From Zhongshania aquimaris (lineage in GTDB: Bacteria; Pseudomonadota; Gammaproteobacteria; Pseudomonadales; Spongiibacteraceae), in NCBI RefSeq assembly GCF_019312595.1, contig NZ_JAHWDQ010000003.1, positions 248,001-312,000 on the forward strand: DNA of 64,000 nt. The letters are read 5' to 3'. Below, piece by piece: positions 17,692-63,741 of the stretch. Numbering within the stretch: the stretch's first letter is position 1; each line of letters begins with the position of its first letter. Below the pieces are notes generated by a model. That model was not told the DNA's origin and did not search any database. It saw only the letters and a list, made by a program, of their open reading frames with translations. A program made the position numbers and the translations under genes.

Positions 17692-17703
17692 AGTGCTCCT
17701 CAC

Positions 17704-17962
17704 TGTTTTCCAGCATACGTGAAAGATGCGAATTTAGACTAACGATGATACATGCCTGCTTCCAAATAAGCACTTAAGTAGCTACACCAAGCCACTGAAA
17801 TAGTTTAGTATTTCCAGCATATTAGCTCGAAAAATTGATGTCACAAAGTGTATGGCCTCATAACTCGTCTGCTGGCAAAGGAAATCTCAAATTTTAGACA
17901 CTGATACTGAGAGTACATCGCGTTCACTTGGCATTGCGGACATACCAAGTTACGGCAGCGAA
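17704..17962. promoter_or_regulatory. Divergent promoter region of bcsRQABZC and bcsEFG
   Basis: The 259-bp intergenic region between the two divergent bcs operons must hold both promoters. Two imperfect palindromes resemble the pseudomonad FleQ box GTCAATAAATTGAC: 17826-17839 (CTCGAAAAATTGAT) and 17886-17899 (CTCAAATTTTAGAC, compared in the opposite orientation). Each matches 10 of 14 positions by eye. Given the AT-rich core, chance matches are possible. No convincing -35/-10 pair was picked out. Confidence 0.5.
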
Positions 17963-19498: not shown

Positions 19499-19520
19499 AC
19501 ATGAGGCTAGGCTAGAAAAA

Positions 19521-19715
19521 ATGGATATAAGAAGCTTTTTACTTACGCTTATAGTTGCGCTCAGTGCGGGCCTTTTTATTGGCTTTACATTGCGAGACAT
19601 CAGCCAATATGTAGCTCAACAGGTCCGAAAACACCTAATTAAACCCAGGTTTCTCAAGCCCTACCAATCAGCGACACAATCTGACCGCGCGATTGAACCC
19701 AAGGTGGATGCATGA
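19521..19715 (+). CDS. bcsF: Cellulose biosynthesis membrane protein BcsF
   Basis: The 64-residue protein has one membrane helix (about residues 5-24) and a basic cytosolic tail (RDISQYVAQQVRKHL). BcsF is a small membrane anchor that in E. coli recruits BcsE and works with BcsG. It starts 22 bp after bcsE and its stop overlaps the bcsG start as ATGA (19712-19715). Sequence alone would be weak; position between bcsE and bcsG decides it. Confidence 0.85.
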   Translation: MDIRSFLLTLIVALSAGLFIGFTLRDISQYVAQQVRKHLIKPRFLKPYQSATQSDRAIEPKVDA

Positions 19716-21325
19716 GATCGAAGCACAACACTGCAGTAGAAACCGTGGTGCTACCTGCCGGCCTCGGTTGGTGGAATCTTTATTTTATATGCAAAATAGC
19801 GTTGTACACTCAAGGCCTTATCGACTTTCACGCACTTGAAAACTTTACATTTGCCGCCTGTTTGCTGCTACCAATCCGCAATCACTATGGCAAAGTCCTT
19901 CGACAAATTATTGCCATCCCAGTCGCGGCCGTGTTGCTACACTACGACTCGTTCATGCCACCGCTATCGCGTCTTTTTTCGCAATTTGATCAGCTTCTAA
20001 GCTTTGAATTCAGTTACCTCATTGAATTGCTTAGTCGTTTTATATCCCTAAAAATGCTTTTAGCTGGAGTCGCAGCTGCTTGTATTTACTACTACATGGC
20101 GAAATCGATTAGGGTCACATCACTTGTCCTGATTGCCATTGTGGCAACTGGTATAAGCACATTGACCACACCACCCGTCGCGACACAAACAGCAAGTAAT
20201 ACAACAAAGAGCGCGATAACATCGTCAAACGACACCAGCAACGCGGCACTGAATCGCTATCTCGACACATTTTTTAGCACCGAGAAATCTCGCCGAACCC
20301 AGTTCCCTAACACTGACACTCAAAGTGCACCATTCGACATTCTACTGTTGAGTGTCTGCTCCCTCGGTGTCGATGATATCAAGCTCGCTGGCCTCGATGA
20401 TCACCCACTATTCCAAAAATTCGATATCGTCTTTGACGCGTTCAACTCCGCCACAAGCTACAGCGGACCAGCGATCATCCGCTTAAGCCGAGCCACTTGT
20501 GGCCAAGCAGAGCACAGCACCTTGTATGGGCCGGTGGACCCAGAATGCCAGCTGTTTCATCAGTTAGAACAGCTCGGCTACGGCAAAGAACTGATCCTGA
20601 ACCACGACGGCGTTTTTGATTCCTTTTTAGAAAGAACTCAGCGTTATAGTGGCATTAGCTCCGCCCCCTTCCCCCATACCGGCGTGGCCGCCACCCAAAA
20701 AGATTTTTCAGGTGCGTTGATCTACAACGACGCAGGAATGCTAAACGCATGGTGGAAGAATCGACAGACCTTAGACAATGATCGCGTCGCTGCACTATAC
20801 AATACCACCAGCCTTCACGACGGTAATCGCATACTTAAAAAGCCAACGGTTTTTGGCGTGGCAAGTTACCAACAACGAGGTAATACCCTTTTTGATGAGC
20901 TTGCCACATTCCTAGAGAATCTAGAAAAATCTAACCGGAACATTGTCGTTGTACTCATACCTGAGCATGGCGCTGGATTGCGAGGCGACAAGATGCAAAT
21001 ATCTGGGATGCGAGAATTGCCATCTCCTTCTATCACTCACATACCCGTGGCGGCGAAGGTAATAGGCCCAAACTTACAGCGCAGTGACGCGATTTTTCAT
21101 GTTAGAGAAGCCAGCAGCCACCAAGCGCTATCGCAATTATTGGCCAATATCCTTGAACAAAAGGTTTTCGATCAGACTCATTTTAGCGCAGCGCAGCTCA
21201 GTTCAAATCTTCCCCAAACCGCACCGGTATCTCAAAATGAAGGCAGCACTGTCATCAAGGTGAATAAGGAATATTTTATTTCCCTAGACAAACAAACTTG
21301 GACTCCCTACAGCACAAGCAAATAA
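19712..21325 (+). CDS. bcsG: Cellulose phosphoethanolamine transferase BcsG
   Basis: A 537-residue inner-membrane enzyme. About five hydrophobic segments lie in the first 155 residues, then a periplasmic alkaline-phosphatase-like domain. Active-site candidates, aligned by eye with E. coli BcsG, are Cys216 (SVCSLG), Tyr250-Ser251 (TSYSGPA, Ser nucleophile), His369 and Glu418-His419 (LIPEHG). Such enzymes transfer phosphoethanolamine from phosphatidylethanolamine to cellulose. The gene overlaps bcsF by four bases. Its presence predicts a modified cellulose rather than plain glucan. Confidence 0.92.
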   Translation: MRSKHNTAVETVVLPAGLGWWNLYFICKIALYTQGLIDFHALENFTFAACLLLPIRNHYGKVLRQIIAIPVAAVLLHYDSFMPPLSRLFSQFDQLLSFEFSYLIELLSRFISLKMLLAGVAAACIYYYMAKSIRVTSLVLIAIVATGISTLTTPPVATQTASNTTKSAITSSNDTSNAALNRYLDTFFSTEKSRRTQFPNTDTQSAPFDILLLSVCSLGVDDIKLAGLDDHPLFQKFDIVFDAFNSATSYSGPAIIRLSRATCGQAEHSTLYGPVDPECQLFHQLEQLGYGKELILNHDGVFDSFLERTQRYSGISSAPFPHTGVAATQKDFSGALIYNDAGMLNAWWKNRQTLDNDRVAALYNTTSLHDGNRILKKPTVFGVASYQQRGNTLFDELATFLENLEKSNRNIVVVLIPEHGAGLRGDKMQISGMRELPSPSITHIPVAAKVIGPNLQRSDAIFHVREASSHQALSQLLANILEQKVFDQTHFSAAQLSSNLPQTAPVSQNEGSTVIKVNKEYFISLDKQTWTPYSTSK

Positions 21326-26589: not shown

Positions 26590-28752
26590 TTAGCGAAACA
26601 ATTCGCCACTCTCAGCGCGACTAAGTAACAAGGACGGCACGCTGAAGTCGGAGCCATACCGCGCTTCTAGCTCCCTAGCCCTGGCAACAAAGGCGTTTAA
26701 ACCGTAGGCATTTATGGCTTGAAAGACTCCGCCGGTTTGCGCGGGGAAGCCAATACCCATAATCGAGCCAATATTACCGTCACCGACGACGTCAATTACG
26801 CCTTCTTCCATACATTTCACCGCCTCTAAACACTGACTAAACGTGAGGCGATCTTTAATATCTTGATAGGGAATATCGGTATAGCCATTCTTAGCGAAGG
26901 CATCTTTCAAACCGGACCAAATGTGTTTTTTGCCGCCTGCGGGGTATTCGTAATAGCCGCCGCCGTGGATTTTACCCTTGCGACCAAATTCAACGACCAT
27001 GCGATCTAAGACCCGCGATGCCGCGTTGTCATGCCATTCACGCCCCTGCGCGACGGTGTCGGCTTTAGCCTGCTGTCCATTTTTATAAGCGGTTTCTTGA
27101 CTAATTTCATCGATGGCCGCTAGCGGACCAACCGGAGAACCGTTGTCGCGCGCAGCGGATTCAATCAAAACCGGATTCACCCCCTCCTCTAGCATAATAG
27201 CGCCTTGGGTGACGGTTTTGCTGATGACACGAGTGGTAAAGAAGCCAGGTGCATCATTAACCACAATCGGCGTTTTACCAAGCTGCTGCGCAAGATCAAA
27301 GGCCTTCGCAAGAGTTTCATCAGAGGTTTGCACACCGCGAATAATTTCCACCAAGGGCATTTTCTCTGCGGGAGAAAAGAAATGCATACCGATAAAGTTT
27401 TGCGCCCGCACACTGGCCTGAGCCAATTCAGAGATCGGTAACGCTGAGGTATTTGAAGCAAACACACTGTCGCTCGCCAACACAGCTTCGCATTCGGCAG
27501 TGACGGCTGCTTTAATACCGCGATCTTCAAAAACCGCTTCGATCACTATATCGCAGTCAGCAAGATCGTTGTAATCCGCTGTCGCGTGAATCAAGGCCAT
27601 GCACTTATTCATCACGTCTTCGGTCAACTTACCTTTGGCGAGACCCTTGTTAAAAAAGGCCTCCGCGTAACCGCGGCCGCGATCTGCATTTTCTTGGCTG
27701 ATGTCTTTTAGCACAACCTGAATACCCTTCTGGGCGGCAACCGTCGCAATACCCGCCCCCATTTGTCCCGCGCCTAGGATCCCTAACTTTTTACATTTAA
27801 AGCGCTCGCTGACATCAGGCCGACTCGCGCCTTTATTCAAGGCTTCCATCTGCACAAAAAATGCCGTCATCATATTTCTGGCGGTTTGATCTAGTAACAA
27901 ACTCAAAAAATAGCGCCCTTCAATCTGTTGGGCAGTATCAAAATCTACCTTTGCGCTATCGACTACACAGGCAAAAATCGCATTTTGCGCAGGCATCAAA
28001 TTCTTCGTTTGTACCATTACATTTGCTGGGCCAAAAAAAGTTAAGCCCTGATTCGCCGGCTCATCTGGCCCGCCGCCGGGAATAATGAACCCGTCTTGAT
28101 CCCAGGGCTGCTTGGCGTCGGCATGTGTTTTAATCCATGCCTTTGCCTTGGCGTGCATATCTGCCTCATCCGTCGCTAATTCATGAAGTAAACCTTTCGC
28201 TAATGCCTGATCAGCCTTTAAGCGACGTCCTTGGCTAATAAGGCCAATCGCCTCTTGCATACCGAGCAAGTAGGTCATGCGCACGACACCACCAGCGCCG
28301 GGCATGAGACCTATCATCGCCTCAGGCAAGCCCACTTGGACACCCTGTATCGCCACACGGTGATGACAGGCCAAGGCTATTTCAAAACCGCCACCCAGTG
28401 CCGGACCATTCAAGCCCACCGCCACGGGTACGCCTAGGGTTTCGAGCTGACGCAGAGGTGCTTTTGTCGCCATCACCCCCTCGTACATTTTTGTTTTTTC
28501 TTCTGCGCTGGGATTTAAATCCATATCCAGCATTTCATTGATATCGCCACCAGCAAAAAACTGCCCAGGCTTACCACTGCGCACGTACACACCGCTTACG
28601 CCACCCTCAGCTACCATGGCCTGCAATTCAACGATCGTCGCACGCATCGCCTCGTCGTATTCCCGCCCCATGGTGTTTACTGCTTTACCGGGCTGATCAA
28701 AAATCAACTCTACAATGCCGTCGCTATCTTTTTCCAAGCGAATATATGCCAT
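26590..28752 (-). CDS. Fatty-acid oxidation multifunctional enzyme (enoyl-CoA hydratase/3-hydroxyacyl-CoA dehydrogenase)
   Basis: A 720-residue FadB/FadJ-type alpha subunit. The N-terminal crotonase domain has the oxyanion loop FFAGGDIN and both catalytic glutamates (GGGFEIALA Glu124, GLPEAMIGLMPGAGG Glu144). The Rossmann dehydrogenase domain starts at GILGAGQMGAGIA (near 328), with IGMHFFSPAEKMPLVE further on and a C-terminal 3HCDH domain. Together with the upstream thiolase it completes a beta-oxidation spiral. The pair is separated by 132 bp with a hairpin. The exact paralogue (FadB, FadJ or other) is not decided, hence no symbol. Confidence 0.92.
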   Translation of the reverse strand: MAYIRLEKDSDGIVELIFDQPGKAVNTMGREYDEAMRATIVELQAMVAEGGVSGVYVRSGKPGQFFAGGDINEMLDMDLNPSAEEKTKMYEGVMATKAPLRQLETLGVPVAVGLNGPALGGGFEIALACHHRVAIQGVQVGLPEAMIGLMPGAGGVVRMTYLLGMQEAIGLISQGRRLKADQALAKGLLHELATDEADMHAKAKAWIKTHADAKQPWDQDGFIIPGGGPDEPANQGLTFFGPANVMVQTKNLMPAQNAIFACVVDSAKVDFDTAQQIEGRYFLSLLLDQTARNMMTAFFVQMEALNKGASRPDVSERFKCKKLGILGAGQMGAGIATVAAQKGIQVVLKDISQENADRGRGYAEAFFNKGLAKGKLTEDVMNKCMALIHATADYNDLADCDIVIEAVFEDRGIKAAVTAECEAVLASDSVFASNTSALPISELAQASVRAQNFIGMHFFSPAEKMPLVEIIRGVQTSDETLAKAFDLAQQLGKTPIVVNDAPGFFTTRVISKTVTQGAIMLEEGVNPVLIESAARDNGSPVGPLAAIDEISQETAYKNGQQAKADTVAQGREWHDNAASRVLDRMVVEFGRKGKIHGGGYYEYPAGGKKHIWSGLKDAFAKNGYTDIPYQDIKDRLTFSQCLEAVKCMEEGVIDVVGDGNIGSIMGIGFPAQTGGVFQAINAYGLNAFVARARELEARYGSDFSVPSLLLSRAESGELFR

Positions 28753-28774
28753 GATATTTTCTCTCTGCTCTGCC

Positions 28775-28805
28775 GGTAGCCGCGATCAGTTCAAGCTCGG
28801 CTACC
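28775..28805. repeat. Hairpin between thiolase and hydratase/dehydrogenase genes
   Basis: GGTAGCCG (28775-28782) and CGGCTACC (28798-28805) form an 8-bp stem with a 15-nt loop. It lies in the 132-bp spacer of the two beta-oxidation genes and has no T-run, so it may adjust the relative mRNA levels of the pair. Confidence 0.45.
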
Positions 28806-28884
28806 ATTATTTCTTTAGCTTATTCACCTAAGCCGAATGACTAGCTAAGTGATTCCATGTCGTTACTTTACGGTTAAGAAGTGC

Positions 28885-30084
28885 TTAAACTCGCTCAATA
28901 ACCGTTGCAATACCAATGCCGCCGCCCGCACATAGCGTGACCACACCGCGCTTTAAATTCCGACGTTCAAGCTCATCCAATAAGGTGCCAAGAATCATCG
29001 CACCGGTCGCGCCAATCGGATGCCCCATCGCGATTGCGCCGCCGTTAACGTTGATTTTTTCGTCTGGAATATTCAGCACTTTCTGATAGCGCAGCACAAC
29101 TGAGGCAAAAGCTTCATTCAGTTCAAACAAATCTATATCGTCGACTGTTAATCCGGCCTTTTTTAATGCCTTTTCGGTGGCCGGTGCAGGCCCCGTTAGC
29201 ATGATAGTGGGTTCAGTGCCGACTAATGCGCAGCTCAAAATACGTGCTCTTGGCGTCAGATTTTGCTCCTTGCCAGCCCGCTCGTTGCCCACTAATACCA
29301 GCCCAGCACCATCGACGATGCCAGAGGAATTTCCCGGGGTATGCACACAGTGGATATTTTCCAATTCAGGATACTTCAGGCGTGCCACACCGCCGTGACC
29401 GAAATCGTCAAACATCTGGAAGGCAGGCTTTAGCTTTGCTAAGCCTGCTAAGTTGGTGTCGCCACGAATAAACTCATCGTGGTCAAGAATCGTCACACCG
29501 TTAAAATCTTTGACTGGTACTATCGATGTAAAATAGCCCTTGTCTCTAGCCAATGCTGCACGCTGTTGTGACATCACCGCATAGCGGTCAACATCCTCAC
29601 GACTGAACCCGTCCATGGTTGCGATCATATCCGCGCCAAGACCTTGGGAAATAAAATAGCTCTTCATCGCCACCCAGGGGTCGCCTGTTGCGCCGCCACT
29701 GGCACCGATTCCCAGACGAGACATGGACTCCACGCCGCCCGCAGCAACCAAGTCTTCGTAACCCGCAGCGACTTTTGCCGCCGCCATGTTCACCGCGTCT
29801 AAACCGCCGGCGCAAAAACGATGCAGCTGTGCACCTGTGGTTACATCATCCCAGCTCGAATACACCAACGCCGCTTTGGCGATGTTCTGCCCCTGTTCTT
29901 TTACCGGCTCGCCGCAGGCTAAAATCAGATCTTCGACTTTAGAGGTATCCAGATCGTGGCGCTCTTTTAACGCCTCTAAGAGATTGGTCACCAAATCGAT
30001 TGGCTTAACCTCATAGAGCGAACCTCCGCGCTTACCTTTGCCACGCGGTGTACGAATCGCATCGTATATAAATGCTTCTGTCAT
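28885..30084 (-). CDS. Acetyl-CoA acetyltransferase (thiolase, FadA-like)
   Basis: A 399-residue thiolase with the acyl-accepting Cys91 in [30 protein letters not shown] (His) and the second catalytic Cys in TLCAGGGIG. The start ATG 30084 has AGGA 7 nt upstream and fits the usual [15 protein letters not shown] beginning. The frame extends 20 residues further but that part is not family-like. It precedes the multifunctional alpha-subunit gene on the same strand. An AraC-family gene lies 212 bp upstream in the same direction and is a candidate regulator. Confidence 0.93.
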
Positions 30085-30296
30085 GGAATATCCTGTCAAA
30101 CTGAGATGAATGTTATCGCTTAAGCTATCTACCACGGAACGCACAATGGCCGTCAGGCGGTTTTAAGACAATGACATTTTCGGTCAACACACTGACAGAA
30201 TTTTTGAAAAGGAATTTAAAACAATGACTTATGACAAAGTAAGGACAACGGCAGCAAATAAAGACTGCGCTGAATGGACTGAGCTAGCGCCATTCC

Positions 30297-48508: not shown

Positions 48509-49846
48509 CTATAAGCCTAATTTACGCACCTTCTCAATCAGGGTTGTTCTTCGCAGGCCCAAATGCGCCGCCGCCTTACTCATCACGCCTGCATGTGATG
48601 CCAAGGCCTGAGATATCCACTCTCGCTCGAGGTTTTGTATATAGGCTTTCATATCGATACCGTCGGCTGGCAAAGCCGGTAACTCCCCAGCTGGCGCCGC
48701 GCCCTGCGCAGCCAATGGCGCTGGCTGCCAATCGCTCTCACCATAGCGATAGTTTTCCGGCAAGTCAGTCAATCCGACCACCGTATCAGGGTACATAATC
48801 ACTAAACGCTCAAGTAAGTTTGCCAATTCTCGGATATTGCCCGGCCAAGAATGGCTGCAAAGCGATCTTAGCGCTGAATCTGCCAGCCGCAGCTGCCCCA
48901 AACCCTCACTTTCAATTTGTTTTGATAAGGCCCGAATCAGATGCCCAATATCATCAGGCCGCTCCGCTAACGCTGGCACCCGCAGCGGAAACACGTTAAT
49001 TCGATAATAGAGATCCTCACGAAATTGCCCCGCGTTGATCATCTCTTCTAAGTTGCGGTGGGTCGCGGCTATAATTCTCACATCCGCACTGCGGGTTTTA
49101 TCCGACCCCACCCGCTCAAACTTGCGCTCTTGTATTACCCGCAGGATTTTCACCTGCATTTCCAAAGGCATATCACCAATTTCATCGAGGAAAAGTGTGC
49201 CACCCTCCGCCAATTCAAAGCGCCCTGCTCGGCTGGATATTGCACCCGTAAATGCCCCCCGCTCATGGCCAAACAATTCGCTCTCCAACAACTCGCGGGG
49301 AATAGCGCCACAGTTAATAGGAACAAAGGGCGCATCTCGGCGACTAGATAAATCGTGCAGTGAACGGGCAACCACTTCTTTGCCAGCACCTGAGGGACCC
49401 GTTATGAGCACCGTCACAGCCTTGTCAGCCACTTGCGCAGACAAGCGCCTAAGTTCTTTCACCGCAGGACTGACCCCGACCAATCGCTGCTTATCGCTCG
49501 CAGCCTCAATTTGAGTCTGCGCTCGCCCAAGCTGCAGCCGATACAAAACTTCCAACACATCTTGATAATAGAAGTCACTACTCAAACTTAATTCCGAGGC
49601 AGGCTTGCTGCGAGCACCGGCCTTCGGCCTCAAATCTACCAGCGGTATCGTCGCTTGCCCTAGCCACTGGGTTTGCTCCACGCTAAGACCGTCCGAAAAA
49701 ATAGCGGCGCAATCACTAGGATTTAAATCAGCACAATCTGTATAAATACAGTAATCGCCCAAGGACGAGAGAATTGCTTGCAAACGCAAGCTGAGCGAGT
49801 CCGGCGCAAAGATTGCGAATACAGGAATGGTAGAAGCAGAGGCCAC
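48509..49846 (-). CDS. fleQ: Sigma-54-dependent regulator FleQ
   Basis: A 445-residue enhancer-binding protein whose AAA+ and C-terminal regions match FleQ. The N-terminal FleQ-type receiver lacks a normal phosphoacceptor. Walker A is TGPSGAGKEVVAR (149-161), the sigma-54 contact loop is GAFTGA (197-202), Walker B LFLDEIGD (218-225), and the C-terminal helix-turn-helix SKAAAHLGLRRTTLIEKVRKLGL-like end is diagnostic. The start is GTG 49846 with AAGGA 6 nt upstream. FleQ controls flagella and, in pseudomonads, cellulose/Pel. No flagellar genes are here, but two FleQ-box-like sites lie upstream. Confidence 0.9.
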   Translation of the reverse strand: MASASTIPVFAIFAPDSLSLRLQAILSSLGDYCIYTDCADLNPSDCAAIFSDGLSVEQTQWLGQATIPLVDLRPKAGARSKPASELSLSSDFYYQDVLEVLYRLQLGRAQTQIEAASDKQRLVGVSPAVKELRRLSAQVADKAVTVLITGPSGAGKEVVARSLHDLSSRRDAPFVPINCGAIPRELLESELFGHERGAFTGAISSRAGRFELAEGGTLFLDEIGDMPLEMQVKILRVIQERKFERVGSDKTRSADVRIIAATHRNLEEMINAGQFREDLYYRINVFPLRVPALAERPDDIGHLIRALSKQIESEGLGQLRLADSALRSLCSHSWPGNIRELANLLERLVIMYPDTVVGLTDLPENYRYGESDWQPAPLAAQGAAPAGELPALPADGIDMKAYIQNLEREWISQALASHAGVMSKAAAHLGLRRTTLIEKVRKLGL

Positions 49847-51875: not shown

Positions 51876-53405
51876 TCAAATAAAACGTACGATGTTTTGC
51901 GGAGCCTTATGCGTCACCGCGATTTTTCGCCCAATCACTTCGCTATCACCTTGCAATATGGCGTAAGCCGCATCGTCATCTGCAGCGGTATTCGCCAGAA
52001 AACGACGACCGTCGTCTAAGCGACCAATCACAATACCCAAGCTCGGCTTACCGCGCGTATAAACAAGTGTATAGGTTTCGACCACAGCCTCACCTTCAGC
52101 CTGCTCAGCCAATTCCGCTACCGGCAAGTTATCAAACGTCGCCTGTAACGTCGGGTCAGCATTGTGGCAAGGCGTTTGTGGCGCTTGGGCAGAATACAAG
52201 CCCACCGACTGTTTCGACAAAAAGCCGCCATTGGCGGTGATCAACCCGAAACCGTCTGAAGTTTCCCGTAACTTATCAGTCAAACTGGCAATCGCATGGG
52301 TGCTGTAATTATTTCCTGCACCGCCGAAAAAGGGTAAACCGCCAGTAACCGTTAGCTCCTTATCGGTATTCCAGTCTAAATCCATCGCCTCACAGGCAGC
52401 CAAAACCGCGATAGGAAAACAGCTATAAATATCCAAAACGTCTATGTCGGAAATCGTTTTTCCCGCTGCGTTAAGTACGCCGTTCAACGTTAACTTCATT
52501 GATTCGGACACTGCTAAATCTGGTCGAGCAGAAACGAAGCGATCATCAACATCTGCATAGCTATGCAGGTAAACCCACTGTGACTCGGGAATACCAAGCT
52601 CAATCGCCTTATCAACCGAACACATCAATAGTGCCGCGCCCTGATTGACCGCGTCCTGTGCCACCATCCACTTTGTATGTGGTGATGCTACCCAATAATT
52701 CTCCGCTGAGACGGTATTTAAAAACTCCGCGCTGCGAGCCACTGGAAATTGTGAATAGGGATTGCTGGCTGCGACATCAGAAAACTTCGCAAATAACTCA
52801 GAGGCTAATTGCCGGTGCTCACCAACGCTTAATTTATGACGTGCACGCCATGCGTTCTCGAACAGAGGGTAGACTTGGGTCGGAAAGGTGATGCCATGAG
52901 CAACTTCATACGGAGTAAAGAGCCAATGACAACCACGATCATCTAGCTGACCGTCAATTGTCTCACTCCAGTCCAAGCTTAGCCCGGCCCGGTTAGCTTG
53001 CTTCATGATCCCTGTTGCTTCAGCACCGGCTATTAAGCAAAGCGACATTTCACCAGAAGCGATCTTCTCGGCAAACTCATTCACAAAGCGCTGAGGAGAA
53101 TGCCCTCCTTCGCGTCCGTAAATAGCAGTTTCAGGATCTGCGCCGATCCGCTTAGCCAGCGATCGGGGAATATTATTACTTATCCCAAAGGGCCCTTTGC
53201 CCCCCGGAACTGAATCAACAAAGCCGCGAATGAAGGCAATGGTATCAATCTCGGATGCGAGATCACTCTTTGCGCCGGCTGCGTTGATAGCTGAGATTGC
53301 CGCTTTAGCGGCGATATCAACGGGTGACATAGCCGTTTCCGCAGTGATTTCACCACGAAACACATATTGTCCAGACGCGACCAGAATCGGTGTTGTATTA
53401 GCCAC
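51876..53405 (-). CDS. Acetyl-CoA acetyltransferase-like protein (SCP-x type thiolase)
   Basis: A 509-residue thiolase-fold protein of the SCP-x/lipid-transfer group. Features include GREGGHSPQRFVNEFAEKI, CLIAGAEA and DIYSCFPIAVLAACEAM near 335-350, and GGLPFFGGAGNN. The C-terminal ~80 residues form an OB-like domain (VVETYTLVYTRGKPSLGIV). Such proteins cleave or carry long or steroid-like acyl-CoAs; the reaction is uncertain because the classic Cys context is changed. The start is GTG 53405, with AGGA upstream. It is apart from other acyl-CoA genes by a 278-bp gap with no gene. Confidence 0.85.
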   Translation of the reverse strand: MANTTPILVASGQYVFRGEITAETAMSPVDIAAKAAISAINAAGAKSDLASEIDTIAFIRGFVDSVPGGKGPFGISNNIPRSLAKRIGADPETAIYGREGGHSPQRFVNEFAEKIASGEMSLCLIAGAEATGIMKQANRAGLSLDWSETIDGQLDDRGCHWLFTPYEVAHGITFPTQVYPLFENAWRARHKLSVGEHRQLASELFAKFSDVAASNPYSQFPVARSAEFLNTVSAENYWVASPHTKWMVAQDAVNQGAALLMCSVDKAIELGIPESQWVYLHSYADVDDRFVSARPDLAVSESMKLTLNGVLNAAGKTISDIDVLDIYSCFPIAVLAACEAMDLDWNTDKELTVTGGLPFFGGAGNNYSTHAIASLTDKLRETSDGFGLITANGGFLSKQSVGLYSAQAPQTPCHNADPTLQATFDNLPVAELAEQAEGEAVVETYTLVYTRGKPSLGIVIGRLDDGRRFLANTAADDDAAYAILQGDSEVIGRKIAVTHKAPQNIVRFI

Positions 53406-54198: not shown

Positions 54199-55125
54199 AT
54201 GGATAGCATCAACTGGGACGATATTCGCTACTGCTTGGCGGTGATTACTGAAGGTTCTGTTACTGCGGCTGCAAAAAAACTAGATGTAAATCACGCAACA
54301 GTATCTCGGCGGATTAGTGGTCTAGAATCCGTACTAGGCGCCCCGCTGTTTGATCGCTCCACCAGTGGCTGGCTTGTCACTCCTGTCGGCGAAGCCGTTA
54401 TTCACTCCGCCGAACAAATAAACGAACAGATACTCGGCATACAAAGGACTGTTCAAGTTGACCGGCAGGAATTGAGTGGCAAGTTAAGAGTAACGGCCTT
54501 GGACGTGTGCATCCAAAGGATATTGATGCCTGGCCTTAAAGCTTTTTCCGCGCGTTATCCAGATATCAACCTAGAACTCATCGCCTCGGAGAGCACATTT
54601 AATCTAGCCGGGCACGAAGCCGACATTGCCTTCCGCACAACCAACGAACCGCCACCAAATGTGCTAGGCACCAAAATAGCTAAATTCGCCTACGCCATCT
54701 ACGGCAGCAAAAATCTATATCAACGCTATTTAACAGGCGACCACGAGGTCAGCGGAATCACTTGGATGGGCGACGGACACACCGTGCCGCCGTGGATGCA
54801 AAAAACATTTCCCGGCATGCAGGTTCGCTACCGAGTGAATTCGCTATCAATTGCTTACGATTTGGTGGCTCAAGAATTTGGATTTGCCCTACTGCCATGC
54901 GGCTTAGGTGACTCTGACGCAAGTCTCACACGCATCGACAGTGATTATATCGAACCCGGAATGGACTTTTGGCTACTGTCGCACATTGACTTACGCACAA
55001 CGGCTAGAATCAGAATATTTCGAGATTTTATGTTAGACGCTATTCAGCCTTACATTCCACTCATTGAGGGAAGAATGACCAGTGAAGAAGTGTTTAGCCT
55101 GCGCGAGAAAGTAGGGCTAGTTTAA
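54199..55125 (+). CDS. LysR-family transcriptional regulator
   Basis: A 308-residue LysR protein. The N-terminal winged helix contains VTAAAKKLDVNHATVSRRISGLESVLGAP-type sequence, then LFDRSTSGWLVTPVGEAV. The C-terminal co-inducer domain is shorter in its secondary motifs, as in members that control single targets. It is divergent from the secreted protein gene and convergent with the SDR gene. Effector unknown. Confidence 0.92.
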   Translation: MDSINWDDIRYCLAVITEGSVTAAAKKLDVNHATVSRRISGLESVLGAPLFDRSTSGWLVTPVGEAVIHSAEQINEQILGIQRTVQVDRQELSGKLRVTALDVCIQRILMPGLKAFSARYPDINLELIASESTFNLAGHEADIAFRTTNEPPPNVLGTKIAKFAYAIYGSKNLYQRYLTGDHEVSGITWMGDGHTVPPWMQKTFPGMQVRYRVNSLSIAYDLVAQEFGFALLPCGLGDSDASLTRIDSDYIEPGMDFWLLSHIDLRTTARIRIFRDFMLDAIQPYIPLIEGRMTSEEVFSLREKVGLV

Positions 55126-55164: not shown

Positions 55165-55944
55165 TTATAATGACTGGAGCAAATGGCCGCCATCCACAGG
55201 CAAGGCAACACCACTTATAAACGAACCCGCGCTACTCGCCAACATGAGCAAAGGCATAGTTAACTCATCCATTTGCCCTAATCGACGCGGCGGAATTTTA
55301 TTCAGATACTGCGCGCCTTTTTCTGATTGAAAAAAATCAGTGTTAATTTCAGTTTCAAAATAGCCGGGGCAAAGTGCATTAACCCGAATACTATGCCGCC
55401 ACAACTCCTGCGCGCTATTTTTAGTAAGCTGAATAACGCCGGCCTTGGCAGTGGCGTACAGGGTATTATTTGAGCTGGGCTGCAAGCCAAGAATAGAGGA
55501 AATATTGATAATACTACCCCCAACGCCGGCCTTAATCATTCGCTCAGAGGCCTCGCGCGACACCCGCCACACCGCTTTTAAATTCGTGTCGACGGTAAAA
55601 TCCCATTTATCTTCGGTGCTGTCGACAAAGCGGCCAGGGTCGGCAACCCCGGCATTATTAACGACAACCGTTACCGTACCGAGAGTAGCTTGCACCTGCT
55701 CAAACGCCGCCACAACCGAGTTGCCATCATTTACATCCATTGCTACGGCCATTGCCTTGCCGCCCCCCGCCTCAATATCTGCAACAAGGCTCTCTAAACG
55801 ATCGACTCGCCTCGCCGCCGCCACGACCGTCGCGCCAGCCTGCGCCAACACCTTGGCAAAATGTGCCCCTAAACCACTAGAGGCACCTGTTACCAAAGCA
55901 AGCTGCCCTGACAAGTCGAGGCTCTTTATCACTGCATCATTCAT
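55165..55944 (-). CDS. Short-chain dehydrogenase/reductase
   Basis: A 259-residue classical SDR. The cofactor motif TGASSGLGAHFAK is at about 19-31 (TGxxxGxG), NNAGVADPGRF follows, the catalytic Ser is in INISSILG and the YxxxK pair in YATAKAGV. A preference for NAD(H) cannot be settled. It is the last gene of the histidine phosphatase - acyl-CoA dehydrogenase - phosphotransferase - SDR unit and starts 19 bp after the phosphotransferase. It could reduce or oxidise a hydroxyacyl-CoA. Confidence 0.93.
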   Translation of the reverse strand: MNDAVIKSLDLSGQLALVTGASSGLGAHFAKVLAQAGATVVAAARRVDRLESLVADIEAGGGKAMAVAMDVNDGNSVVAAFEQVQATLGTVTVVVNNAGVADPGRFVDSTEDKWDFTVDTNLKAVWRVSREASERMIKAGVGGSIINISSILGLQPSSNNTLYATAKAGVIQLTKNSAQELWRHSIRVNALCPGYFETEINTDFFQSEKGAQYLNKIPPRRLGQMDELTMPLLMLASSAGSFISGVALPVDGGHLLQSL

Positions 55945-55963
55945 ACATTAATTCTCTGAATTT

Positions 55964-56992
55964 TTACTCGCCCTTCTCAATTAGAGCCCAGCCCAAATCA
56001 GCCAAAGGCGCGGCAAGTGCGCCGTAGTCCATTGCTTTTTTGCTGGACGCGTTGCCATCCAATGCGCGCTTGTATACGCCTTGCAAAATGGCGCTCAAAC
56101 GGAAGAAAGAAAAGGCCAAATAGAATACCCAATTATCTATCTCGGCTATGCCTCGACGCTGGCAATACTGTTGTACATAGGCTTTTTCACTTGGAATACC
56201 CAAGACCTCACGATCAACACCCCCTAAGCCCGGAATAGCCGCGTCACTCGGAATCCGAAGCTGCATACACTGGTAGGCTAAATCTGCATAGGGGTGGCCG
56301 AGAGTAGACAACTCCCAATCAAGTAATGCCAATACCTCACTGCTATCGTGAGCAAACATCATGTTGTCTAGCCGGAAGTCACCATGATTGATACACACCA
56401 AGCCATCATCTGCAGGTAGATTATCGCTAAGCCACACCATCATTTTTTCCATAGATGGCACAGTTTCTGTTTCACTGGCGCGATACTGCTTAGTCCATCG
56501 ACTTAGCTGACGCTCAAAATAATTCCCAGGCTTGCCGTAATCACTTAGGCCCGCCTTTTCAATATCGATACTGTGTAGATCAGCTAACACTGTATTCATG
56601 GCGTCATAAATAGCAGTGCGTTCTGCGGGTGTTTGCCCTGGTAAAGCGGCATCCCACATAATCCGACCATCAAGAAAATCCATCAGGTAAAACATCGAGC
56701 CAATAACACTATCGTCGTCACACAATACCCGCATTTTCGGCACTGGGACGTCAGTTGAGGCCAAGGCGTGCATCACCCGAAACTCGCGATCGACTGCATG
56801 AGCAGACTTCAATAACTCACCCGGCGGTTTGCGCCGCAGCACATATTTGCCACTGGCAGCCTCAACCAGATAGGTTGGATTAGATTGACCGCCGGCAAAC
56901 TTCTCTGCTGAGAGCGGCCCTTTAAACCCGTCGACATTCGCTTCTAGATACGCCGTCAATGAGGCTATATCAAGCTCGAATTCATTTGCCAT
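55964..56992 (-). CDS. Phosphotransferase (ACAD10/LvaA-like APH family)
   Basis: A 342-residue APH-family kinase. The N-lobe has KFAGGQSNPTYLVEA, the ATP-anchoring lysine lies in KYVLRRKPPG, the catalytic loop is CINHGDFRLDNMMF (about 195-208), and the metal Asp is in ALLDWELSTLGHPYADLAY. In the known LvaA and ACAD10 relatives, such kinases phosphorylate 4-hydroxyacyl-CoA, and the neighbouring acyl-CoA dehydrogenase removes phosphate. Here it is flanked by exactly such a dehydrogenase (11 bp away) and an SDR. Transfer from aminoglycosides is not implied. Confidence 0.9.
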   Translation of the reverse strand: MANEFELDIASLTAYLEANVDGFKGPLSAEKFAGGQSNPTYLVEAASGKYVLRRKPPGELLKSAHAVDREFRVMHALASTDVPVPKMRVLCDDDSVIGSMFYLMDFLDGRIMWDAALPGQTPAERTAIYDAMNTVLADLHSIDIEKAGLSDYGKPGNYFERQLSRWTKQYRASETETVPSMEKMMVWLSDNLPADDGLVCINHGDFRLDNMMFAHDSSEVLALLDWELSTLGHPYADLAYQCMQLRIPSDAAIPGLGGVDREVLGIPSEKAYVQQYCQRRGIAEIDNWVFYLAFSFFRLSAILQGVYKRALDGNASSKKAMDYGALAAPLADLGWALIEKGE

Positions 56993-57003
56993 TGCGCTCC
57001 CCT

Positions 57004-58227
57004 TTAACCCGCATAACGGTCAATGATTTGTTTTCCCAAGGCCATTTGATGCACCTGATCGGGGCCATCTGCTTGACGGCACCAGCGCGCATAATTAAAT
57101 GCTTCCGCCATGAAGTAATCTTCGGTCAAACCACCTGCGCCGTGCAACTGCATGCAACGGTCAATCACATTCTGCACGAGTAAGGGAACCGTTGTTTTAG
57201 TTGCCGCAATCATATCGGTGGTTTGCATGGGACCCTGCTCATCAATCAGCTTACAGGTTTTCAAAACCAACAAGCGCGCCATTTCAATCTCAGAAAAACT
57301 CCGAGAAATCTCTTCGCGCACTGACTGATGCTTGCTCAAGGGCTTACCGAAAGTGGTACGTGATACCGCACGCTTACACGCTAGTTCCAAGGAACGCTGT
57401 GCCGCACCGATCAAACGCATGCAGTGATGCATACGACCTGGTGCCAAACGACCCTGTGCAATTTCAAAACCTCGACCTTCACCCAATAGTACGTTTTCTA
57501 ATGGCACCCGTACATTGTCGAAAACCATTTCCGCGTGACCAATAGGCGCATCGTCATATCCCAAGGTCGTTAATGGTCGGGTGATCGACATGCCAGCGGT
57601 GCCAGCCGGGACCAATACTTGGGTCTGTTGCTTGTGACGACTCAGGTTATCTGGATCAGTTTTGCCCATCACGATAAAAATTTTAGTGCGTTCGTTCATT
57701 GCGCCGGTGATAAACCATTTCCGGCCATTTAACACCCATTCATCGCCGTCTTTAACAATACTCATTTGTATATTGGTGGCATCGCTAGAGGCGACTTGCG
57801 GCTCGGTCATCGCGTACGAAGAGCGAATATCACCGTTTAGTAGCGGCGTTAACCACTTCTCGCGCTGGGCATCGGTCGCGTACTTCATGAACACTTCCAT
57901 ATTGCCGGTGTCTGGCGCATTGCAGTTAAACACCTCGGGCGACCACAATACGCGACCCATTAGCTCCGCGAGCGGCGCGTAATCCACAAAGCTTAAACCA
58001 CCGTGTTCGCAATATTGCGAGTATTCTTCTGGGCAAAATAGATTCCACAAGCCGGCGCTTTTGGCCTTTTCTTTTAGCTCATCCATTAACGGCACAATAG
58101 CAAAACGGTCTTTTGCGCCGTGCAATTGCTCTGCATAGGCTTTTTCATTTGGATAAATATGCTCATCCATAAACGCGCCGAGTTTGTTTAACAGCGCTTG
58201 TCCTTTTGGGCTTGGCGTAAGATCCAT
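57004..58227 (-). CDS. Acyl-CoA dehydrogenase (ACAD10/11, LvaC-like)
   Basis: A 407-residue flavoprotein. FAD/substrate motifs include SSYAMTEPQVASSDATN (about 145-160), GRKWFITGAMNERTKIFIVMG, DNVRVPLENVLLGEGRGFEIAQ, and the C-terminal MQLHGAGGLTEDYFMAEAF region. The start ATG 58227 has GAGG 8 nt upstream; a frame to 58260 adds 11 residues. The close linkage with a kinase suggests it works on phosphorylated acyl-CoA. The electron acceptor (ETF) is elsewhere. Confidence 0.92.
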   Translation of the reverse strand: MDLTPSPKGQALLNKLGAFMDEHIYPNEKAYAEQLHGAKDRFAIVPLMDELKEKAKSAGLWNLFCPEEYSQYCEHGGLSFVDYAPLAELMGRVLWSPEVFNCNAPDTGNMEVFMKYATDAQREKWLTPLLNGDIRSSYAMTEPQVASSDATNIQMSIVKDGDEWVLNGRKWFITGAMNERTKIFIVMGKTDPDNLSRHKQQTQVLVPAGTAGMSITRPLTTLGYDDAPIGHAEMVFDNVRVPLENVLLGEGRGFEIAQGRLAPGRMHHCMRLIGAAQRSLELACKRAVSRTTFGKPLSKHQSVREEISRSFSEIEMARLLVLKTCKLIDEQGPMQTTDMIAATKTTVPLLVQNVIDRCMQLHGAGGLTEDYFMAEAFNYARWCRQADGPDQVHQMALGKQIIDRYAG

Positions 58228-58266
58228 AACTAAATCCTCTTCTGCGTAATACGGCGACAAATCGCC

Positions 58267-58953
58267 CTAAGTGTAAGTAATTAAATGGCGATGCCCTGAG
58301 CTTTCCAGATGCGGAACCGCATTAAACATATTCAAACTAAAACTCATACCGCGGGTGAAATAGCGTGTCACCCCCGTGTTTTTTGCCTGTAGATTGGTAT
58401 TCACCATAGTCTCGACATCTAGCGCGAGTACCTCTCTTAACATGGCACTAATAGGACCGCCGGAGGTAACCACTAACACGCGCCCCTTTACTCCCGACAA
58501 GTTACCTATAGTGCCGCGAACCCGCCGCTCAAATTCATCCCACGGCTCGGCAATATTCTTCAACTCATTGCGGCTCCAAGCCATCAATGCCACGCGCAAC
58601 ATACGATAAAAGCTCTGCGAATCGGCAAGATTGATCTTCCCACCGTCAAGCAGGTCGCCATTTAAAGCGATATATGCGCCGACCAAACTATGGAAGTCAT
58701 ACTCGTTCAAGCCAGGGAGTTCAGTGGCCTGAGGCGTAACGATAGACGATTGCGCCAAGGCATCACGAATTCCCGCCAAGGTCTCGCGGTGACGTCGCAT
58801 CGTACCGGTAAATACGGCATCAAAACGCTGTTCGGCATCGGCAAAATGTTCGCCCAGCAAGCGGGCCTGCTCCCAGCCAACTTCAGTAAGGCGGTCGTAA
58901 TCGTCAGTACCAAAGGCAGCTTGCCCATGTCGGACCACAATAACTTCAGCCAC
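58267..58953 (-). CDS. Histidine phosphatase family protein
   Basis: A 228-residue protein of the phosphoglycerate-mutase-like superfamily. The phosphohistidine motif VVRHGQAAFG is at about 6-15; TMRRHRET and ALPLLG-like (ATELPGLNEYDFHSL) segments and VLVVTSGGPISAML near 160 complete the pocket. These enzymes dephosphorylate small metabolites. It ends 39 bp before the acyl-CoA dehydrogenase start on the same strand. Within an operon that appears to make phosphorylated acyl-CoA, it could clear a dead-end phosphate. The start is GTG 58953. Confidence 0.88.
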   Translation of the reverse strand: MAEVIVVRHGQAAFGTDDYDRLTEVGWEQARLLGEHFADAEQRFDAVFTGTMRRHRETLAGIRDALAQSSIVTPQATELPGLNEYDFHSLVGAYIALNGDLLDGGKINLADSQSFYRMLRVALMAWSRNELKNIAEPWDEFERRVRGTIGNLSGVKGRVLVVTSGGPISAMLREVLALDVETMVNTNLQAKNTGVTRYFTRGMSFSLNMFNAVPHLESSGHRHLITYT

Positions 58954-59149
58954 AAATGCCCCCTGCTATCAACACGATCATGGAAATTACCACCATCCTT
59001 ATTTATATCGCCTCGCGCAGAACGAACAGCACAAGTAAATTTGAGGAGACAGCATCATAACGCCAGCACAATCATTATTGAAATCTATTATTTTTATCTA
59101 TCATAATAAGCTATGCTTATTTTACTTTGGACATAACGAGGCAGGCTTT

Positions 59150-60037
59150 ATGAACACATCAAAAATAGATCTAAATCTGTTTACTGTCTTTGACGCCATC
59201 TACTCACAACAAAGCCTGACCCGCGCCGCGGGTGTTTTGCACGTTAGTCAGCCCGCTGTTAGCAGCTCGCTCGCGAAATTGCGCAGTATCTTCGACGACC
59301 CATTATTTGTCCGCACCAGTACCGGTATGACGCCAACCCCACTGGCCAGGCAACTCGTCAGCACGGTACGGGAATCCTTAAAAAATCTGGATAATTGCAT
59401 CGCGACGCGAATTCCTTTTGAAGCTAGCACCGCAAGGCGGACCTTTCGCCTGCACGCCACCGAAAACGCCGAATTAATTCTACTACCCGTGCTACTTAAG
59501 CAACTTAAACAGCACGCGCCGCAAATTGACTTAGAGGTCGTATTTATTGATCGGCGTGAAGTAGCGTATGAAATGGCCAGCGGCAAAATACACCTCGCCG
59601 TAGACGCGCCGCTACTTAGCCACCCTGAACTGCTTAGTCAGCCCTTGCAAACAGATGACTATGTTTGTGTGATGCGAGAAAACCATCCGCTCACTGCGAC
59701 AGAGTTCAATTTAAATGACTTTTTGGAGCATGAGCACATCCATATTTCCAGCAGAATGAAAGGCTCAGGTCATATTGATTTAGCATTGCGATCTATTGGC
59801 CAAAAACGTCGTATCGCTCTACGCTTGCAACACTATGCAGCCCTGCCCGCATTGCTGGCGCAATCTGACTTTATCGCCGCAGTACCTGCAGCCGTTGCAA
59901 ATCATTGGCAATTATCCAACCGCCCACTGCCCTTCGACACACCTAAGTTAGAGCTCCAACTATTCTGGCACAAAAGCGTGGAGCACGACCCAGCGGTACT
60001 ATGGCTGCGGGAGTTCACGCTGGCCTTAGGGCACTAA
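59150..60037 (+). CDS. LysR-family transcriptional regulator
   Basis: A 295-residue LysR protein of the NodD/PcpR-like type: SKIDLNLFTVFDAIY, SLTRAAGVLHVSQPAVSSSL, LFVRTSTGMTPTPLA. The start is at ATG 59150, with GAGGCAGG upstream; the 24 residues before it in the open frame are not family-like. It is divergent from the phosphatase-led operon across 196 bp and is the best candidate to regulate it. Confidence 0.92.
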   Translation: MNTSKIDLNLFTVFDAIYSQQSLTRAAGVLHVSQPAVSSSLAKLRSIFDDPLFVRTSTGMTPTPLARQLVSTVRESLKNLDNCIATRIPFEASTARRTFRLHATENAELILLPVLLKQLKQHAPQIDLEVVFIDRREVAYEMASGKIHLAVDAPLLSHPELLSQPLQTDDYVCVMRENHPLTATEFNLNDFLEHEHIHISSRMKGSGHIDLALRSIGQKRRIALRLQHYAALPALLAQSDFIAAVPAAVANHWQLSNRPLPFDTPKLELQLFWHKSVEHDPAVLWLREFTLALGH

Positions 60038-61276: not shown

Positions 61277-62848
61277 ATGTTAGTTCATCAGTTCTTCGAT
61301 TTTCACTGTCAACGCAAGCCCGACAGTCTATGTTTGATATTTGCGGGAAAACACTACAGCTATCGAGATATTTCGCATCAATCAGAACAGCTCGCACGAT
61401 CTCTGCGCAGCGAGGGACTAGAACACGGCGACCGCGTGGCCGTGCTGTGCGAGAATTGCCCCGAATACTTAAGCTTGATGATGGCGTGTAGCCGCATTGG
61501 CGCAGTGCTAGTGCCTATCAACTATCGGCTCGCACCCGCCGAAGTATTATTTGTACTACAAGATACCAAAACCAAATTACTGCTCGCGCCCGACGGTAAG
61601 CTAACTGAATTAGTTGAGGGCCTGCGCCCGCTGATTAGCGGATTAACGGTGATATCAACCACCGAACAAGGCGATTACAATTGGCAGAATTGGTTAGAGC
61701 ATGGCGCTGCCAACACCGCCGAAGCCAATTTCAGCAAATCTGATCCCAACACCTACTCTGCTTTTTTACAGCTATACACCAGTGGCACCACCGGCAATCC
61801 CAAAGGCGTTGTAATAAGTCATCACAATATCATCGCCCTCTACATCATGAGCCAAACCTCATTGCCGGTAAAATCAGGTGTGGGCACTAGAGACTTAGTC
61901 TGTGCACCCAATTTTCACATTGGCGGCTCTGGCACTTTGTTACTCCCCATTTTGGCTGGGGCCAGCGTGGTCTTGCACAGCAGTTTTAACCCCGTCGCCA
62001 TTGTTGACGACCTTGAGCAACTGCAAATAGACAATATGTTTATTGTGCCCGCCATGATAATGGCTATTATTGAATATGTGCCGAATATTGAGCAGCGCGA
62101 TTTCAGTCATCTGAAACAATTGCTGTATGGCGCTTCACCGATTAGTACCGGCCTGCTCGAAAAAGCAACGAGCATTTTTAAATGTGACTTTTATCAATGC
62201 TACGGCATGACAGAAACCACCGGCACAGTCGTTTCTCTATCTCCCGCCGATCACGCCTTAGCCCTCAACGGCAGGCCCGAATTATTGCAATCCTGCGGCC
62301 GCCCACTGGCCGGTGTTGAAGTCAAAGTCATCAATAAACAAGGCGAAGCGCTTGCACGCGGTCAAACCGGAGAGCTATTGATTCGCTCTGAATCTAATAT
62401 GCAAGGCTATTTCAATTTAGAACAAGCCAGCCGTGACACCGTCATTGACGGTTGGGTGCACACCGGTGACTCCGCCATGATCGATGAGGACGGCTACATT
62501 TTTCTTCGCGACAGAATCAAAGACATGATCGTTAGCGGCGGGGAAAACATTTACCCCATCGAAATAGAAAATGTATTAAGTAAGCATTCTGCAATTACCG
62601 ACGTTGCGGTAGTCGGCATTCCAGACGACAAATATGGCGAGACTCCACTCGCCTGCGTTGTATGCGCGACTGGCCAAACATTGACTATTGAAGAGTTAAT
62701 TACATTTTGCCGAGACCAGCTCGCAGGTTACAAAATACCGCGTCGTCTCGAATTTTACGAGGCCTTACCTCGCAACCCATCGGGCAAAATTCTGAAGAAA
62801 ACCCTGCGCGAACCTTATTGGGAAAATCGCGAACGCAAGATTAATTAA
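61277..62848 (+). CDS. AMP-dependent acyl-CoA synthetase/ligase
   Basis: A 523-residue ANL-superfamily enzyme: P-loop LYTSGTTGNPKGVVISH (about 168-184), YGMTETTG (near 312), HTGDSAMIDEDGYIF, RIKDMIVSGGENIYPIE, and the C-terminal catalytic lysine in PSGKILKKTLR. It activates a carboxylic acid as acyl-CoA. A fatty acid or a smaller acid cannot be decided. It would supply substrate to the dehydrogenase/kinase operon nearby, from which it is divided by regulators. Its end overlaps the convergent hydrolase by four bases. Confidence 0.92.
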   Translation: MLVHQFFDFHCQRKPDSLCLIFAGKHYSYRDISHQSEQLARSLRSEGLEHGDRVAVLCENCPEYLSLMMACSRIGAVLVPINYRLAPAEVLFVLQDTKTKLLLAPDGKLTELVEGLRPLISGLTVISTTEQGDYNWQNWLEHGAANTAEANFSKSDPNTYSAFLQLYTSGTTGNPKGVVISHHNIIALYIMSQTSLPVKSGVGTRDLVCAPNFHIGGSGTLLLPILAGASVVLHSSFNPVAIVDDLEQLQIDNMFIVPAMIMAIIEYVPNIEQRDFSHLKQLLYGASPISTGLLEKATSIFKCDFYQCYGMTETTGTVVSLSPADHALALNGRPELLQSCGRPLAGVEVKVINKQGEALARGQTGELLIRSESNMQGYFNLEQASRDTVIDGWVHTGDSAMIDEDGYIFLRDRIKDMIVSGGENIYPIEIENVLSKHSAITDVAVVGIPDDKYGETPLACVVCATGQTLTIEELITFCRDQLAGYKIPRRLEFYEALPRNPSGKILKKTLREPYWENRERKIN

Positions 62849-63741
62849 GCGCTAAACAATGCGGTCAACCAATCACTAATTTCGCTCATGGCCTTATTGT
62901 GATGATCATTAGGCCCCTGCAAACCGACAAAGCCGTGGCTAGCAGCGGCGTACAAGCTGTATTGCACATTATTGTCATGCTGGCTCAGACGCGCGGCAAA
63001 ATTAGCACCGTCATCACGCAGCGGGTCGCGCTCAGCGGTGATAAGTAGGGTCGGCGGCAAGCTATCTAAATCACTTCGCATTAACGGTGTCGCGCGCGGA
63101 TGTCGAGTCTGCCCTGGCTCTAACTGCGGGCTGTTTAGCAAATACGTATCCCAAAACCACATCATTAATTTACGCGTCAGCACAGGTCCATTGGCATTTT
63201 CAATATACGATAGAGTACCTGGATCGTAGTGATCCGTAACCGGATAAATTAACACCTGCCCCTTCACCACACCCGGCAAACATTCCCGCGCTTGCAAGGT
63301 CGTCACCGCAGCGAGGTTGCCACCAGCACTATCTCCTGCTACCGCAATAGCGTTTGGCAATCCACCATACTGGGCAATATGTTCATAAGTCCACTTTAAG
63401 GCTGCCAAACAATCTTCAGGCGCCGCGGGAAAGGGATACTCTGGCGCCAGGCGATACTCCACCGCCACCACAATACAATCACTGCGATCGCACAAGTCGC
63501 GGCACAGGGGATCATAAACATCCAAATCACCAATAACCCAACCACCGCCATGGTAGTACACCAGCACTGGGAATGGCCCCTCCCCCGGAGGTTGGTAGAC
63601 ACGAAGTGGAATAAGGCCGTGGGCAGTTTCAATACTCGAGCTGCGCACAGCAATATGCTTTGCCGTTTTACCCAGCCAGCGTATCCACGTATCTGCTTTA
63701 ACTAAATTTCGTATCGCAACGGCTTTGAGTTTTGTTTTCAT
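62845..63741 (-). CDS. HSL-family alpha/beta hydrolase (esterase/lipase)
   Basis: A 298-residue esterase of the hormone-sensitive lipase group. It has the oxyanion motif VYYHGGGWVIGD (about 61-72), the nucleophile GDSAGGNLAAV, the acid in ITAERDPLRDDG, and His in AASHGFVGL. It hydrolyses esters of short to medium chains. It ends convergent with the acyl-CoA ligase with a 4-bp overlap. No signal peptide, so it is cytosolic. It could release acids for activation by the ligase. Confidence 0.92.
   Translation of the reverse strand: MKTKLKAVAIRNLVKADTWIRWLGKTAKHIAVRSSSIETAHGLIPLRVYQPPGEGPFPVLVYYHGGGWVIGDLDVYDPLCRDLCDRSDCIVVAVEYRLAPEYPFPAAPEDCLAALKWTYEHIAQYGGLPNAIAVAGDSAGGNLAAVTTLQARECLPGVVKGQVLIYPVTDHYDPGTLSYIENANGPVLTRKLMMWFWDTYLLNSPQLEPGQTRHPRATPLMRSDLDSLPPTLLITAERDPLRDDGANFAARLSQHDNNVQYSLYAAASHGFVGLQGPNDHHNKAMSEISDWLTALFSA

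Follow-up and report, generated by a model that had tools for sequence, protein, structure and literature searches.

In mammals, ACAD10 and ACAD11 perform a kinase reaction and a phosphate elimination on 4-hydroxyacyl-CoA (PMC11342911, PMC12440821), and the acyl-CoA dehydrogenase (ACAD) residues R626, H634, R637 and D753, which hold the phosphate, are reported to distinguish ACAD10/11 and LvaC from conventional ACADs (PMC12440821). A kinase and an ACAD of Burkholderia pseudomallei, orthologous to LvaA and LvaC, can substitute for parts of ACAD10 (PMC11342911, PMC12440821), and the degenerate HAD domain of mammalian ACAD10 has been proposed to keep the phosphoacyl-CoA intermediate in check (PMC11342911). 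The levulinate cluster of Pseudomonas citronellolis LA18T (Habe 2019) was described with a kinase, a histidine phosphatase, an ACAD and an SDR, and without lvaB; its authors suggested that the phosphatase might remove phosphate from 4-phosphovaleryl-CoA (PMC6692424). Here we analysed a 64,000-nucleotide stretch of the Zhongshania aquimaris genome (the window; contig NZ_JAHWDQ010000003.1, positions 248,001 to 312,000), in which a four-gene operon at 55165-58953 encodes a kinase and an ACAD of this kind together with an SDR and a histidine-phosphatase-fold protein (HP). We found that this HP belongs to a distinct subfamily that has exchanged the second catalytic His for Ser, and that such HPs sit in kinase/ACAD operons of three phyla.

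Kinase and dehydrogenase of the operon

The open reading frame (ORF) map confirmed the head-to-tail order and the gaps of 39, 11 and 19 bp that an earlier sequence-only reading of this DNA had described, with all four genes on the minus strand and the ACAD started from the ATG at 58227 (a TTG at 58260 is an alternative start). The features, each called from its ORF and Pfam matches unless stated otherwise, were as follows.

58267..58953, minus strand: HP, histidine-phosphatase-fold protein, 228 aa, GTG start (PF00300, 4.8e-19)
57004..58227, minus strand: ACAD10/11- and LvaC-type acyl-CoA dehydrogenase (ACAD), 407 aa (PF00441, PF02770, PF02771)
55964..56992, minus strand: APH-fold kinase, 342 aa (PF01636, 1e-51)
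55165..55944, minus strand: SDR oxidoreductase, 259 aa (PF00106, PF13561)
59147..60037, plus strand: LysR-type regulator in divergent orientation to HP, with TTG at 59078 as an alternative start
58954..59146, no strand: spacer between operon and LysR gene, presumed promoter region

The same set was syntenic in Zhongshania aliphaticivorans, the nearest named relative (L028; protein identity 82-96%), in which the block that runs in the window from the LysR gene at 54199-55125 to the esterase gene at 62845-63741 was kept, so the four-gene arrangement is not a product of chance.

The sequence-only reading had also assigned the kinase and ACAD to the ACAD10/11 and Lva kind, and both solved relatives and functional residues agreed with it. 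The best solved relatives were 3dxp and ACAD11 (8v3v, 8v3u) for the kinase and 4hr3 and ACAD11 (2wbi, 8v3u) for the ACAD, and identity to ACAD11 reached 44% for the kinase (over the kinase domain) and 46% for the ACAD. When a numbering offset of one was applied, ACAD residues R260, R265, H268, R271 and D387 aligned with R626, R631, H634, R637 and D753 of ACAD11, and kinase residues R161, D205 and N210 aligned with R176, D220 and N225, of which D220 and N225 are catalytic and R176 belongs to the CoA site. For ACAD11 R86, which lies next to the alpha-C glutamate, position 86 fell on a Phe with that offset; the adjoining Arg of the DRE motif was kept. Across other loci, the five phosphate-handling ACAD residues were retained in 29 of the 30 with an ACAD match (best match per locus), the sole exception being a match only 26% identical (L208), while the aligned kinases kept D220 and N225 in 25/25 and R176 in 22/25 cases. 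Because these residues match and the enzymology of ACAD10/11 is published, the operon core very probably performs ACAD10/11 and LvaA/LvaC chemistry, in which 4-hydroxyacyl-CoA is converted through 4-phosphoacyl-CoA to 2-enoyl-CoA.

Relative to the mammalian enzymes, the kinase and phosphate-eliminating ACAD are common to both, with all mapped residues kept except the unplaced R86. ACAD10/11 form a single chain, whereas the window kinase and ACAD are two separate proteins, and where ACAD10 has its HAD domain the window operon has a partner of the histidine phosphatase fold, with an SDR and a LysR gene linked. The lva operon of P. putida likewise groups a kinase, an ACAD and an SDR. It also encodes LvaE, LvaF, LvaG, LvaR and LvaB, none of which has a counterpart inside the window operon, since the short gaps leave no room for them; the HP is found there instead. 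LvaA is 29% identical to ACAD10/11 kinase domains (PMC11342911) compared with the 44% of the window kinase to ACAD11, LvaA and LvaC being likened here through their published descriptions. The P. citronellolis cluster matches the window in gene content, including the lack of lvaB in the published description, but its order is kinase-HP-ACAD-SDR with a ligase, a transporter and a PrpR-like regulator beside it; this comparison concerns gene content and not the Ser/His site. The suggestion that a phosphatase combined with a kinase/ACAD pair might be new did not hold up, and we likewise rejected the four-gene set as a new combination, because this 2019 cluster has all four genes (PMC6692424). In the literature searched, which covered few subscription papers and did not include the primary lva paper, we found no description of the one-histidine nature of the HP or of its cross-phylum tie to the kinase. 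The pathway core is therefore known and the partner published at least once, and the Ser-type nature and broad linkage are the part for which no description was found.

HP subfamily and its genomic linkage

The AlphaFold2 model of HP (mean pLDDT 96.1, pTM 0.92) showed a histidine phosphatase fold. Its best Foldseek match was 9mmh (E 1.1e-11), and VIA-align scores lay in the range of 20-22, 9mmh included, with PGAM5 at Z 22.4 (2.2 A over 172 residues) and PhoE at Z 20.4. HP keeps R8 and H9 of the RHG motif, H9 being the nucleophile, as well as R54 and E84, and Ser164 (codon 58462-58464) stands where solved relatives have their second catalytic His. Profile alignment located this column: the solved enzymes 9mmh, 6nru and 6e4b all have His there. 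Of the superfamily criteria, the fold and RHG nucleophile are thus present and the second catalytic His is absent. With the branch 1 histidine phosphatases (PhoE, PGAM5, SixA, CobC) the HP has the fold, the RHG motif, the second Arg and the acidic residue in common, but these enzymes carry a second catalytic His where the HP subfamily has Ser throughout. HP is a superfamily homologue by fold and sequence and not a canonical two-histidine member.

The substitution was uniform among close relatives. Arg8, His9, Arg54 and Glu84 were invariant and the second His was Ser in 15 sequences of the class sample (window included) and in the 80 best-ranked relatives, and Ser together with His9, Arg54 and Glu84 occurred in 112/112 distinct HPs above 100 bits with the column aligned, a count that includes the sequences from which the model was built. 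HPs of Deinococcus and Streptomyces had Ser at this site too. Among HP-like proteins at 60-100 bits, none had the Ser column aligned, and of the 13 listed below 60 bits the five with the column aligned all had His; the four other PF00300 proteins of the Zhongshania genome have the second-His motif as judged by pattern. A motif-pattern count of the second His in the 80 relatives (72 S, 3 H, 5 unclassified) was superseded by the alignment, which gave Ser in 80/80, the H calls stemming from other motifs. We also considered whether the HP is fused to another domain, as an 880-aa frame at L156 might imply; no Pfam match was found outside the HP, and we took it as a chance open frame. The idea that Ser marks only kinase-linked HPs was rejected, as HPs without a nearby kinase have Ser as well. 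These features mark a distinct Ser-type subfamily, and in annotation such 'histidine phosphatase family proteins' should not be taken as ordinary phosphatases.

Co-occurrence of HP and kinase was evaluated with genomes treated as independent and kinship and genome size ignored. In a class sample of 185 genomes, HP was found in 14 and the kinase in 24 (E <= 1e-20 for each), with both in 14 (Fisher 5e-15); a looser threshold of E <= 1e-3 raised the HP count to 17. In an order sample of 145 genomes, HP was found in 60 and the kinase in 76, with both in 59 (Fisher 9.5e-24; the exception is G227). Adjacency is a stronger sign than these tests, since they treat genomes as independent, and in the order sample 50/69 HP places lay <=5 kb from a kinase match and 19/69 did not (two G300 pieces counted as one place). 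Conversely, 17/76 kinase genomes of that sample had no HP match, which fits an accessory role of HP better than an obligatory step.

We then considered HP neighbourhoods in the best 80 of at least 585 relatives, using 6-kb flanks and counting losses at contig ends as misses. A kinase was encoded nearby on the same strand in 46 of these loci, with kinase and ACAD downstream of HP in 42, and in one (L104) the kinase lay on the opposite strand. A survey of plasmids, in which 6 of 34 records were examined, revealed HP together with kinase, ACAD and SDR in Deinococcus, Streptomyces, Pseudoalteromonas and Azoarcus, and HP adjoining the kinase in Sulfitobacter; on a Haematobacter plasmid, HP stood beside a PaaI thioesterase and ligases with no kinase in the stretch examined. 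A PaaI thioesterase gene was also found inside the Deinococcus HP operon. A Ser-type HP could serve as a marker for locating hydroxy-acid catabolic operons.

Possible roles of HP

We propose that the operon could act as an entry module that brings 4-hydroxyacyl-CoA (gamma-hydroxyacyl-CoA) into beta-oxidation. The kinase would phosphorylate the 4-hydroxyl of 4-hydroxyacyl-CoA and the ACAD would eliminate the phosphate, with transient use of FAD, to yield 2-enoyl-CoA. LvaD reduces levulinyl-CoA (PMC6692424), and by analogy the SDR is supposed to catalyse a keto/hydroxyacyl-CoA step, most likely interconverting the two forms, with a direction that we infer, as we do the substrate. HP would be an accessory phosphatase of the histidine fold whose site is altered (second His to Ser); it most likely dephosphorylates stalled or hydrolysed kinase products (4-phosphoacyl-CoA or free 4-phospho acids), keeping them from accumulating. 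Free 4-phospho acids form in cells (PMC11342911), and together with the thioesterase neighbours this fits the clearing of dead-end products. His9, Arg54 and Glu84 were kept in 112/112 and Arg8 in 80/80 sequences, which argues for retained catalysis, and loss of a catalytic His reportedly lowered fructose-2,6-bisphosphatase activity less than 10-fold (PMC10728186), so Ser need not mean a dead enzyme. The whole proposal, with HP as an altered but active phosphatase clearing phosphoacyl intermediates, is the one we tentatively favour.

Several observations weigh against it. A core of two histidines is described as common to members of the histidine phosphatase superfamily (PMC10728186), and HP activity cannot be assumed because the second catalytic His is absent; the presence of Ser in all 112 aligned HPs favours altered catalysis, the kept nucleophile, arginines and acid favour retained catalysis, and both activity and substrate of HP are putative. 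The co-occurrence counts take no account of relatedness or genome size. For 33 of the best 80 HP relatives no kinase match was found in the stretch; when the genomes of 31 of these 33 loci (all but L054 and L106) were searched at E <= 1e-30, 29 held a kinase elsewhere, and none was found in those of L063 and L087. With L036 and L104 added to the same search, 31/33 genomes held a kinase. Finally, the ACADs of 14 other HP-linked loci are 48-56% identical to ACAD11, compared with 46% for the window ACAD. Some of the unlinked loci (L060, L084, L096, L102 and L103, for example) showed a Ser-type HP without nearby kinase or ACAD or clearly conserved neighbours, with a kinase elsewhere in the genome.

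With the same core chemistry, HP might instead be a degenerate phosphatase acting as a regulator, which would bind phosphoacyl-CoA in the remaining phosphate pocket and restrain or assist the kinase, or replace LvaB as its partner. The closest precedent is the HAD domain of ACAD10, which retains a single Asp of the DxD motif, shows next to no phosphatase activity and holds its kinase back (PMC11342911), and histidine-phosphatase-fold proteins without catalytic residues can become ligand binders (PMC10728186). The universal Ser points the same way; a flea protein also has Ser for the second His, but its first His is gone as well (PMC10728186). The P. citronellolis cluster as reported has an HP and no lvaB, and for P. 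putida an interaction between LvaB and LvaA has been reported (PMC6692424). The retention of His9, Arg54 and Glu84 throughout, and of Arg8 in 80/80, would however be unusual in a dead enzyme, and the modest effect of His loss in fructose-2,6-bisphosphatase speaks against equating Ser with inactivity. We regard a regulatory role as the main rival to the favoured proposal and as less likely.

A broader generalisation, which we consider possible but unlikely, is that bacterial 4-hydroxyacyl-CoA kinases have in this widespread one-histidine subfamily a dedicated partner for control or repair, with an origin separate from and parallel to that of the ACAD10 HAD domain. If true, two unrelated phosphatase folds, both catalytically impaired, would have been recruited to restrain the same phosphoacyl-CoA intermediate. 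As the bacterial HP is conserved and often encoded beside the kinase, the control of phosphoacyl-CoA derived from 4-hydroxy acids becomes testable with small proteins.

It is improbable that the operon acts on another phosphorylated acyl-CoA, with the hydroxyl elsewhere or derived from a ring or isoprenoid acid, through the same kinase/ACAD logic. In favour of this, the operon lacks genes for an acyl-CoA ligase, a transporter and a sigma-54 regulator, the window ACAD stands further from ACAD11 than other HP-linked ACADs do, and the genome has three kinase/ACAD modules whose different accessories suggest different substrates. Against this, all ACAD phospho-substrate residues examined match ACAD11, and cells were reported to make no phospho-product from 5- or 6-hydroxyhexanoate (PMC11342911). 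That HP is instead a step of the main path, dephosphorylating 4-phosphoacyl-CoA en route to a 3-hydroxy or enoyl product, a role proposed by the authors of the P. citronellolis study (PMC6692424), is very improbable, given that ACAD10/11 remove the phosphate without an HP, with LvaC reported to do likewise (PMC11342911, PMC12440821), and given the 17 kinase genomes without an HP match.

Other modules and neighbouring genes

The three kinase/ACAD modules of the Zhongshania genome carry different accessories, module A being the window operon and the other two as follows.

G000:C1, ~1758105-1762779: module B, ACAD-SDR-kinase-HP-SDR, with an HP of the Ser type (HP_B)
G000:C1, ~738862-741472 (L192, L003): module C, ACAD-kinase-DUF6285

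In all three modules the ACAD has its phosphate-site residues intact. Identity to ACAD11 was 56% for the ACAD and 36% for the kinase of module B, and the module C kinase showed a gap at the CoA-site Arg of ACAD11. A search of the module C stretch with the Ser-type query alone gave no HP match.

In another genus of the same order, a canonical two-histidine HP was found between DUF6285 and ACAD of a C-type module at L209, L211 and L212, which are three of the five DUF6285 places found in that genus. Kinase, DUF6285, canonical HP, ACAD and SDR stood in a row at L211 and L212, and L209 was arranged likewise with no SDR listed. This second, canonical HP lineage beside a kinase/ACAD pair suggests that phosphatases were recruited more than once. 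DUF6285 lay within 20 kb of a Ser-type HP at 0/19 DUF6285 places, and our literature search on DUF6285 returned no paper. LvaB may be a DUF6285 protein, an equation considered in view of the DUF6285 gene beside the module C pair and of its distance from Ser-type HPs, and on which we base no claim. We rejected the equation of L211 with the P. citronellolis cluster, since the ACAD of L211 shows only 34% identity to ACAD11, compared with the 56% reported for LvaC (PMC11342911), and the P. citronellolis ACAD is 78% identical to LvaC (PMC6692424).

The LysR gene at 59147-60037 is the probable regulator of the operon. A divergent LysR gene stood beside HP in 7 of the 10 loci compared (L028, L029, L030, L038, L041, L183 and L184) and was not found in the other three (L031, L044 and L053). 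Among the NCBIfam matches listed, no model reached its own cut-off for HP, ACAD, kinase or SDR; for the SDR, the top model among the best 25 of 230 matches scored 244 bits against a cut-off of 358. Base composition revealed no island at the operon, and scanning for promoters and terminators turned up fewer sites, promoter-like ones included, than shuffled sequences did.

LysR genes flank the operon on both sides (54199-55125 and 59147-60037). The nearest ligase gene encodes an AMP-ligase (61277-62848, plus strand), ~2.3 kb beyond HP on the opposite strand, and a sigma-54 activator gene lies at 48512-49846 (minus strand), >5 kb from the operon. A thiolase-like protein with a TLP1 C-terminal domain is encoded beside an AraC regulator at 51876-53405 and adjoins the operon in L029 too. 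Further away in the window, an enoyl-CoA hydratase/3-hydroxyacyl-CoA dehydrogenase and thiolase pair (26593-30144) could accept the enoyl-CoA product, and positions 6922-21322 hold cellulose synthesis genes (BcsA-like with PilZ, BcsB, the BcsC C-terminus, GH8, BcsE and BcsG).

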